Below are positions 6,930 through 9,297 of a DNA stretch of 14,698 nucleotides, piece after piece (position 1 is the stretch's first letter; each line of letters opens with the position of its first letter). The notes under the pieces were generated by a model that saw nothing but the letters and a program-made list of their open reading frames with translations, ran no database searches and was not told the origin of the DNA. The translations under genes were made by a program, and so were the position numbers. The stretch is from positions 1 through 14,698 of the forward strand of contig CAJBVC010000548.1 in the NCBI GenBank assembly GCA_903958915.1, written 5' to 3'. The stretch comes from an uncultured beta proteobacterium (GTDB lineage: Bacteria > Pseudomonadota > Gammaproteobacteria > Burkholderiales > Burkholderiaceae_C).

Positions 6930-9297
6930 TGCGTTTGCTCCACTCATGAATGGCAAAGGATGCCACATCTTCGGCGTAACTCTTGACGCCAAAGCCGGCG
7001 TCGTAGCCCAGCTCCTTGGCGAGTTCGTGGCTGATGCGCGGGCCGCCCACCACCAGGATCACCTTGTCGCGAATGCCTTCGGCTTCGAGCAGGTCGGACA
7101 GCTTGGTGAGGTTGTCGAGGTGGATATTCTTCTGTGTCACGATCTGCGACACCAGAATCACATCCGCTTTCTCCTCAATGGCACGGGCCACCAGGTCTTC
7201 GGAGTCCACTTGTGCGCCCATGTTGATGGCGCGAATCTCGTGGTAGCTCTCCAGCCCCTTGTGGCCGTTGTAGCCCTTCATGTTCATGATGGCGTCAATG
7301 CCGACCGTGTGCGCATCGGTCTCGATGCAGGCGCCCACCACCACCATCTTGCGACCCATCGTTTCGGCGATACGCGCGTTAACACCATCCTTGTCGAGCA
7401 CGTCGTATTCGGGCTTGGAAATGGTGAGCTGCGACAGGTCCACCTGGTGTTTGCACTGGCCGTAGACAACATAGAAGCTGAAGCCCTGGCCCATGTCTTC
7501 GGCGTGCACCACGGCGGGCTCATTCAGACCCATGGCCAGCGCGAGCTGCTTGGCACCTTCTTTGGCGACTTCGTCGAGTGCCACGGGCAAGGTGAAGGAG
7601 ACTTGCACCCTGCCATCGTTCAAGGTATCGCCGTAAGGTTTCACCCATTTTGCTGCGGTTGGGTTATTGGGGTCAGACACCAATTTCGCTGCGACGCCTT
7701 GCGTCGCACCCGCCGGGGGTGCTGAAGGCACCGCGAATTTGGGCTCTGACCCCAAAAACCCCGGCAGCATGAGTGCGGGAAAAGGGTTGAAGTAGTCCTG
7801 GGACTTCGCAATCACGCCATCAAGCCCTTTGCCCCCGGTTGGGGTACGGGAGATCTCTGCAAACGTGCCCTTGCCGATTGCTGCTGGCAGGCCCATGCCT
7901 TCAATTTCGGCCAGAATCTGTTCAGTTTGTGCCAATACTTCCTGGGCGCGCAATTCAATTTTGCCGCCGGCCTTGAATTCGATTTCGGAGTGCAGGTCGC
8001 GCATGGTGCCAAACACGTACTTGGCATTCTGGATGGCGAGGAAACGGTCCTGAATGAAGGGGGTATGAATGGCCTCGGTCATCATGCCCAGCAGGTGAAT
8101 GTTCTGTTGCGTGAGGGTACTCACCATGTTGAACAGCGCGTCCTGGATATGGCCCTTGAAAATGTTGCCGGTCATGTGTTTGGTCGGCGGCATGTATTTC
8201 AGGCACGCATCCGGAAACACCTGTCGCACCAGTTGCGCATGGGCGATTTCCCACAGAAAACCATTCTCCAGCTCGGGGTGGATCTCGAACGCATGGCCCA
8301 GCCCCATCTGCTCCGGTTTCAAACCCGACAGGTAGGCAAACTGCTCGTTGATGAGCTGCGACGCCAACACGGTGTGTGCGGCCTCGAAAGCATCGGCGGT
8401 GGTCAGGTAGTTGTCTTCGCCGGTGTTGATGATGATGCCGGCATAGGCATTGACCATGCGCGAAAAGAACTGGTCAATAAAGGTGCGCTGCATGTTGATG
8501 TCGCGAAAGATGATGCCGTACATCGAATCGTTGAGCATCATGTCCAGCCGCTCCATGGCACCCATGGCGGCAATCTCCGGCATGCACAAACCCGAGCAGT
8601 AGTTCGTCAGGCGGATGTACCGACCCACCTTCGCGCCCACTTCGTCGAGCGCGGCACGCATGAGGCGGAAGTTTTCCTGCGTGGCGTAGGTGCCACCGAA
8701 GCCCTCAGTAGTCGCTCCATAGGGCACATAGTCCAGCAGACTCTGTCCGGTGGAGCGGATCACGGCAATGATGTCGGCCCCCTGCTCCGCAGCCGCGCGG
8801 GCCTGCGCAACATCCTCAAAAATGTTGCCGGTGGCCACAATCAGGTACAGCCACGGTGCCTTGCCTTCGCCCAGGTTCTTGATCTGCGCATCTCGTTTTT
8901 CGCGTTGGGCCGCAATCTGCGCGCACCGGGTCTGTGCCAGGGCGGTTGCAGCCGTGCGCGCTGCCACCTCATCGCCGGGCTTGTGCAGTGTCAGCGTGCC
9001 TGCAGCCACCGCCTCTGCCACTTGCTGCGCGCTACAGCCCAGTTCCTGCATGGCCGCCGCCAACAGTGTGGCAGCACCATGCTGCAACAGGCCCTGCGCC
9101 TGCATGTGTTCGACCAGCCGGTTGGGCAAGGGGACGCCGTTTTCATCCACACCATCGACGCCCAGCAGGCGCACGGTGGCACGCTCCACGGTGGTGGTGG
9201 TGAAGCGGCTCATGTCATCGAATACCTGGCGGGCAATGCGTTGTGCCGATGCGCGGGCGCGATCGATCTGGGTTTGGTCTAGTTGTAAGTGGCTCAT
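6922..9297 (-). CDS. kamDE: Fused lysine 5,6-aminomutase, KamD (alpha) and KamE (beta) in one chain
   Basis: A B12- and PLP-dependent enzyme that moves the terminal amino group of beta-lysine from C6 to C5, giving 3,5-diaminohexanoate. In the characterised enzymes alpha and beta are separate; here they form one 791-residue protein. Residues 1-513 are a full KamD TIM barrel. Positions matching PLP- and substrate-site residues of the clostridial enzyme (offset -3 from numbering I remember) are R181, S186, Y260, D295, N296 and K367. Residues 514-550 are an Ala/Pro-rich linker, mostly encoded by a palindromic repeat at 7667-7755. Residues 551-791 are a full KamE, from WVKPYGDTLNDG. Its B12 motif DAHTVGIDAIMNMKGYNG holds the cobalt ligand H663 and PLP lysine K674; GGPRI and GYDAGFG follow. 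The start MSHLQLDQTQ at 9297 lies 4 bases after the kamB stop. Both halves keep their key residues, so it is probably active. The fold could also suggest ornithine 4,5-aminomutase, but the operon is a lysine pathway. Confidence 0.94.
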   Translation of the reverse strand: MSHLQLDQTQIDRARASAQRIARQVFDDMSRFTTTTVERATVRLLGVDGVDENGVPLPNRLVEHMQAQGLLQHGAATLLAAAMQELGCSAQQVAEAVAAGTLTLHKPGDEVAARTAATALAQTRCAQIAAQREKRDAQIKNLGEGKAPWLYLIVATGNIFEDVAQARAAAEQGADIIAVIRSTGQSLLDYVPYGATTEGFGGTYATQENFRLMRAALDEVGAKVGRYIRLTNYCSGLCMPEIAAMGAMERLDMMLNDSMYGIIFRDINMQRTFIDQFFSRMVNAYAGIIINTGEDNYLTTADAFEAAHTVLASQLINEQFAYLSGLKPEQMGLGHAFEIHPELENGFLWEIAHAQLVRQVFPDACLKYMPPTKHMTGNIFKGHIQDALFNMVSTLTQQNIHLLGMMTEAIHTPFIQDRFLAIQNAKYVFGTMRDLHSEIEFKAGGKIELRAQEVLAQTEQILAEIEGMGLPAAIGKGTFAEISRTPTGGKGLDGVIAKSQDYFNPFPALMLPGFLGSEPKFAVPSAPPAGATQGVAAKLVSDPNNPTAAKWVKPYGDTLNDGRVQVSFTLPVALDEVAKEGAKQLALAMGLNEPAVVHAEDMGQGFSFYVVYGQCKHQVDLSQLTISKPEYDVLDKDGVNARIAETMGRKMVVVGACIETDAHTVGIDAIMNMKGYNGHKGLESYHEIRAINMGAQVDSEDLVARAIEEKADVILVSQIVTQKNIHLDNLTKLSDLLEAEGIRDKVILVVGGPRISHELAKELGYDAGFGVKSYAEDVASFAIHEWSKRNV
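7667..7755. repeat. 89-bp palindromic (REP/MITE-like) element inside the kamD-kamE linker
   Basis: The ends are 23-bp imperfect inverted repeats (7667-7689 and 7733-7755), matching at 20 of 23 positions, with outer TTGGGGTCAGA and TCTGACCCCAA. Between them are a perfect hairpin TGCGACGC-CTT-GCGTCGCA (7690-7708) and a smaller one, GGTGC-TGAAG-GCACC (7718-7732). The whole unit is open in the kamDE frame and encodes residues 515-544, including GSEPKFAVPSAPPAG and ATQGVAAKLVSDPN. It resembles short GGGGTCAGA-ended palindromes that I remember as scattered repeats, some near REP-associated tyrosine transposases; that link is from memory. I see no clear target-site duplication. No other copy was noticed in this window. 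Confidence 0.8.

Follow-up and report, generated by a model that had tools for sequence, protein, structure and literature searches.

A REPIN-like palindromic element has very probably inserted between kamD and kamE, replaced the stop codon, Shine-Dalgarno sequence and start codon found there, and joined the two genes with itself as the linker. The case lies in a window (the whole stretch of DNA analysed, 14,698 nucleotides) with the following features:

6922..9297, minus strand: kamDE fusion ORF, 791 aa, lysine 5,6-aminomutase alpha + beta (ORF list, protein and profile searches)
6931..7647, minus strand: KamE (beta, dimerisation + B12-binding) domain (NF052385, residues 556-794 of P0001)
7661..7761, no strand assigned: REPIN-like palindromic element, 101 bp (inverted-repeat search, folding, dispersed copies in relatives)
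7661..7689, plus strand: arm 1, GGGTTATTGGGGTCAGACACCAATTTCGC, 29 nt (inverted-repeat search)
7667..7683, plus strand: REP unit TTGGGGTCAGACACCAA, a small imperfect hairpin by eye (read from sequence)
7690..7732, no strand assigned: spacer with three hairpins of 8, 3 and 5 bp (predicted folding)
7733..7761, minus strand: arm 2, inverted, 29 nt, 86% complementary to arm 1 (inverted-repeat search)
7739..7755, minus strand: second REP unit, inverted (read from sequence)
7768..9288, minus strand: KamD (alpha, TIM-barrel) domain (NF052384, residues 9-515 of P0001; PF09043)

An earlier note on this DNA had described an element of 89 bp with 23-bp inverted ends and two internal hairpins. The inverted ends were recovered as described, 7667-7689 agreeing with 7733-7755 at 20 of 23 positions, but the arms reach further, which brings the element to 101 bp, and folding predicts three hairpins rather than two. 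The longer size is consistent with the dispersed copies described below, since in 18 of 24 the palindrome continues for 6 or more bases outside the TTGG...CCAA core. Folded as RNA, the element forms a single closed stem of -64.2 kcal/mol, against a mean of -35.4 for shuffled sequences (z = -8.3, equalled by 0 of 200 shuffles); the DNA fold gave a z of -8.6, with 0 of 200 shuffles as good. A 17-base mini-hairpin, TTGGGGTCAGAnnCCAA, is seen by eye at each end. On inspection, the termini read GGGTTATTGGGG.. and the palindrome does not have a GTAG/GT(A/G)G or CGTC head at its foot. At the two junctions examined, those of kam and uvrA, no direct repeat indicative of a target site duplication was seen by eye.

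Two of the three frames of the element are open on each strand. The one used in the fusion reads GFLGSEPKFA...AKLVSDPNN, and the complete minus-strand translation of the 101 bp is GFLGSEPKFAVPSAPPAGATQGVAAKLVSDPNN. That the element is read in frame was correctly noted earlier: 7755-7667 encodes residues 515-544 when numbering begins with the ATG at 9297, which yields the 791-aa protein P0002 (an earlier ATG in the ORF list yields 871 aa, and P0001 begins 5 codons upstream of the ATG at 9297). The two domains on either side are indeed complete, as the NCBIfam NF052384 and NF052385 matches cover nearly the whole models and exceed their cut-offs, and no more than a few residues separate the ends of the element from the last residue of KamD and the first of KamE. 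The linker, of ~33 residues, is rich in Ala, Pro, Gly and Ser. Reading the sequence directly upstream of the KamE part, we found neither a Shine-Dalgarno sequence nor an in-frame ATG; one in-frame GTG and one out-of-frame ATG are present. An AlphaFold model of the fusion was poor (mean pLDDT 58.6, 28-sequence alignment) and uninformative on the linker.

The comparison of kamD/kamE loci proposed in the earlier note revealed close relatives that have neither the element nor the fusion. In G027, a genome of the same genus, KamD and KamE are 92.7% and 97.5% identical to those of the window and are encoded by separate genes. The stretch that lies between the shared flanks in G027 is AATGGAGGTAACTGACATGAGCGAAAC, ~27 bp containing a Shine-Dalgarno sequence, the kamD stop and the kamE ATG; in the window, the element occupies this place. 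Moreover, a separate 515-aa KamD (P0022), ending in LMLQGVN, is identical to that of the window over 503 aligned columns, meaning that an unfused allele exists very near the window allele. Among 80 loci retrieved, 3 were classified as fused and 77 were not. At the 26 loci with KamD identity above 72%, the element was present in all 3 fused ones (L040, L041, L043) and in 1 of the 23 unfused ones. In this last locus (L046, same sequence as L166), the element lies in frame within another repeat in the kamD tail, and kamE has its own start; it could be an intermediate. The element signature was found in 0 of 87 unfused KamD tails, and the 5 genomes of the genus of G473 contained no additional fusion. 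The kam operon itself is patchy, being present in 8 of 103 genomes of the genus, with kam genes in 10 of 399 genomes of the family.

A different repeat, GCGGGACAG...CTGTCCTCAACT, often lengthens the KamD C-terminus in unfused loci and proteins (L042, L049, L122, L123, P0032, P0033, P0037, P0066, P0083). Because of this, the kamD-kamE gap seems to draw repeats from several families.

Dispersed copies had been expected in the host and in related genomes, and palindromes with the same termini are indeed scattered in both, but the exact subtype of the window is found at home only at kam. The pattern GGGGTCAGA-N40-70-TCTGACCCC occurred 8 times in the host MAG (93% complete, 6% contamination), window copy included, against 0 for the reversed-pattern control, and was present in 32 of 103 genomes of the genus. 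The subtype terminus, with up to 3 mismatches, gave 18+18 matches in G473, 10+13 in G499 and few in the other genomes tried, while its reversed control gave 0 matches in 8 of 8 genomes. We read 24 full copies, with cores of 85-108 bp (16 in G473, 7 in G499, 1 in G497), in regions chosen around terminus matches in six genomes; the terminus pattern was loose, so that close variants are included. Contigs were seen to end inside or just past copies in G473, G499 and G497 (e.g. L217, L219, L222, L235, L239, L241, L243), suggesting that the elements break assemblies and are hence undercounted. A plasmid search returned 46 records with partial matches, none of which reached 80% query coverage.

The surroundings of the 24 copies were also compared. 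Flanks sharing an inverted 6-mer were found in 11 copies (shuffled mean 3.65, maximum 9), and a GGACAG-type repeat is touched by 15 of the 16 G473 copies on at least one side and by 7 on both, a weak hint that the elements prefer insertion inside other palindromes. The frames of these free copies are open in 20 of 24 cases each way, near the values for shuffled interiors (0.77 and 0.67). Coding selection acting on the elements as a population was therefore rejected as an explanation for the missing stop.

As to the REP-associated tyrosine transposase gene whose presence the earlier note had wished to see, the host genome contains a 232-aa Y1_Tnp transposase ORF with the motif DNHFHLL, lying between two inverted REPs. 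The REP beside it, TTGGGGTCAGATTCCAA, has two bases unlike the window unit. The protein is above the Pfam Y1_Tnp cut-off and matches NF047646 over nearly its whole length, but at 69.8 bits it remains under the cut-off of 80 of that NCBIfam model; we call the gene RAYT-like. This score, together with the absence of a GT(A/G)G head, is why the element is named REPIN-like and not a GTAG REP. A second Y1_Tnp match in the host (L038, G000:C431:3829-4062) begins in the middle of the profile and contains an internal stop codon; judging from its sequence, it looks like a decayed transposase gene.

Such repeats had been said to lie normally between genes. In this family they also occur in frame inside genes, namely those for UvrA and PurK in the same genome and GcvP in a relative. 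Family palindromes were found in the host frames for UvrA (L030, G000:C35:1213-1285), PurK (L032, C113:496-569) and DNA polymerase I (L036, C931:3540-3602). The 916-aa UvrA frame scores 783.3 bits with TIGR00630, above the cut-off of 729.8, and 793.1 with NF001503, below the cut-off of 1147. PurK scores 558.6 bits (cut-off 441), and its PurK_C match (residues 414-500) spans the palindrome. In the DNA polymerase I frame, a related palindrome follows the exonuclease part; this frame reaches 306.9 bits for a cut-off of 720, and the contig ends 11 codons on. G027 lacks the uvrA palindrome of the host; the flanking sequences are ~96% identical, and the target suffered no loss comparable to that at kam. 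The GcvP copy, of the window subtype, belongs to G499 (L229 3001-3089, G499:C13), where it is read in frame immediately ahead of the C-terminal domain, whereas in G497, G129, G473, G009, G041 and G027, where the element is absent, the two halves of the gcvP match are 0-12 bases apart. By eye, the UvrA linker has another seemingly repeated segment and PurK a seemingly second insert. In the purK gene of G027 (L252, G027:C141), seemingly only the last bases of the element are left, CTGACCCCAATTTC (DPNF), which suggests loss by deletion.

The fusion appears to be recurrent in related bacteria, as judged from protein and gene sequences. A protein search, in which 8000 candidates were scored and the best 120 listed, gave at least 20 full-length fused proteins of 77-100% identity among the matches listed, P0002 of the window included. 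The element linker signature beat 500 shuffles of the protein's own linker in 19 of 20 (by a small margin in P0014, P0018 and P0019), and tied in P0021. Eleven more distant fusions (P0101, plus ten proteins whose identity is 56-62%, one of these ten being named Peptococcaceae) scored 5-7 of 20, below the shuffled maximum, and 0 of 11 passed. Part of what the earlier note would have counted against its reading, fusions with an element-free linker, thus does occur at a distance, while among close relatives none was clearly seen. A protein search with the linker only matched KamDE proteins exclusively (7 of 45 candidates), and is uninformative on other fused pairs.

On trees built from KamD only, without the linker, 12 changes of the fused label are required, on both a quick and a careful tree; such parsimony changes do not separate gains from losses. 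In the quick tree, at least 9 changes are forced by starred (well-supported) branches; it has 141 of the 152 rows built, 11 under 76% identity having been dropped (L127, and the ten distant fusions, classified by the script as separate), and P0101 was left out as it has no recognisable core. In the careful tree, with 86 of the 141 rows (all 25 fused-labelled and 61 hand-picked separate ones), at least 7 changes are forced by starred branches, and the bootstrap figure of 12-13 is not settled. The 25 fused rows include two identical pairs (window/P0002 and P0019/L041) and a nearly identical one (P0011/P0012), as well as P0023, with a partial KamE, and P0064, which stops before KamE and whose fusion is assumed.

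The linkers also differ from each other. Four were read as DNA (window, L040, L041, L043), the others as protein. Opposite orientations are found in P0009, P0017 and P0020 on one side, and in the window, P0003-P0005 and P0010 on the other (GFLGSEPKFA.. / GLLGSDTNFA..). The junction of P0010 retains the native PTQGADHA tail, right ends vary (TAAKWVKPYG, VKPYG, PEKWVKPYG, WVKPYG), and the linkers of P0007, P0015, P0016, P0023 and P0064 read, at the protein level, as an element nested in an element. Because orientations and junctions differ and some linkers are nested, several independent insertions are likely, although we can only infer their number. In the L041/P0019 linker, another repeat-like segment (peptide RIKSGMT) seems to have taken the place of the element's centre, so that one repeat would sit inside another in a coding linker; this segment presumably belongs to a known repeat family.

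The 12 changes need not be 12 insertions if a single ancestral fusion, made by a REPIN, was spread by transfer or recombination of the kam operon and later reverted in places. We consider this unlikely, yet several observations fit it: the kam genes are patchy enough that transfer is possible and could spread fusions, the host genome has no second copy of the window subtype, and P0008, P0013, P0014, P0016 and P0019/L041 form one starred clade in the quick tree, as expected from one origin. It is opposed by the two orientations, by the differing junctions (the P0010 tail and the varied right ends included) and by the 7 or more changes forced by starred branches; each reversion, besides, would have to rebuild a stop, a Shine-Dalgarno sequence and a start, or to recombine with a separate allele.

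The palindrome could also be a passenger, which entered later into genes first fused by deletion, or into a naturally variable linker. The element-free distant fusions, the single chain of the related D-ornithine aminomutase E component (3kow) and the nested-reading linkers, which suggest elements entering existing element linkers, all speak for such a history. Nevertheless, we hold it to be improbable, more so than a single origin, given that among close relatives the element is in all three fused genome loci and 19 of 20 full-length proteins (P0021 being unclear), and that in the window it ends within a few residues of both domains. As for the possibility that the palindrome is an intrinsic, immobile hairpin with a terminator-like or regulatory role in the kam operon, the great stability of the hairpin is in its favour, but both orientations occur, no U run is seen by eye, and 22 of the 23 unfused kam gaps have no element. 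The dispersed copies contradict it, family palindromes sitting in unrelated genes including those for UvrA, PurK and GcvP, and we rejected it as hardly credible.

Insertion between kamD and kamE thus remains our preferred reading, and could have proceeded as follows. The element would be non-autonomous, with a hairpin-rich spacer enclosed by two inverted REP units, and was probably mobilised by a RAYT. A copy would have landed in the kamD-kamE gap, a few dozen bases long, cutting kamE off from its upstream signals, behind a very stable hairpin. Products in frame and lacking stop and start would have both domains translated from one start, and selection would favour these fused survivors. In the surviving allele, the element stands in place of the kamD stop, the kamE Shine-Dalgarno sequence and the kamE start codon; being GC-rich and without a stop in the frame used, it should be read through by ribosomes, giving a single predicted KamD-KamE polypeptide. 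Large motions of the B12 domain have been described for these aminomutases in the literature available to us, and a flexible linker would permit them. The history proposed in the earlier note, in which an element without a stop in the gap let the genes fuse, is supported, most of the checks proposed there having come out in its favour, except that the element replaces ~27 bp and is not a mere bridge. As the uvrA insertion took place without comparable loss, two steps, or selection for the ~27-bp loss, are favoured at kam.

A broader proposal, which we think rather probable but hold less firmly than the insertion itself, is that REPIN-like palindromes are a recurrent gene-fusion device, having made KamDE perhaps 10 or more separate times, in either orientation and, where readable, in the same hydrophilic frame, and having then been replaced by nested copies. 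If true, this would be a general route from selfish DNA to inter-domain linkers. The origins of domain linkers and gene fusions are usually inferred from old events. Here the element, a RAYT-like gene, the empty site, an unfused carrier and seemingly parallel fusions coexist among close relatives, so that the origin of a multidomain protein from two subunits via a mobile palindrome is directly testable.

Among known proteins, the E component of D-ornithine 4,5-aminomutase (OraE, PDB 3kow) is one chain and aligns with residues 148-784 of the window protein, which scores 282.6 bits with NF040743, for a cut-off of 800; we know of no repeat-made linker in OraE. In the open-licence literature accessible to us, parts of PMC3733652 and PMC2653234 included, we did not find a REP-made joining of two genes; the main text of PMC3733652 has no word beginning with 'fus', and its available sections do not describe repeated arrival of REPs at one gene junction. 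They do report that the recB genes of two Xanthomonas species carry REPs at nearly the same position.

The system is nearest to the REP/REPIN and RAYT couple, as described in the available parts of PMC2817692: in both, inverted REP pairs with a spacer are dispersed, and REPs of the same family stand inverted on either side of a Y1_Tnp gene in the same genome. Classical REPs carry a GT(A/G)G head (PMC2817692), which the kam unit does not; the copy number here is low, and the kam element is coding and joins two genes. Intragenic GTAG/CGTC REPs have been reported in frame in repair genes such as those for UvrA and DNA polymerase I, with flexible linkers suggested (PMC3733652, in the sections available), and likewise two host palindromes are read in frame here, in uvrA and purK, and a third comes after the exonuclease portion of a DNA polymerase I frame. 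Rickettsia palindromic elements (RPEs) are also in-frame palindromic inserts in protein genes, altering one product, whereas at kam two genes are merged (PMC10969869 and PMC3733652, as far as available); the accessible part of PMC10969869 calls it not unusual for MITE ORFs to be fused in frame with genomic ORFs. The UvrA, PurK and GcvP copies are in-frame insertions of the RPE kind, those of uvrA and gcvP being coding insertions missing from orthologues, a likeness in working manner only. We conclude from these sources, in their available parts, that in-frame REP insertion was already known and that the merging of two genes is the new part: the kam case extends REP/RPE insertion from the decoration of single proteins to the joining of two.
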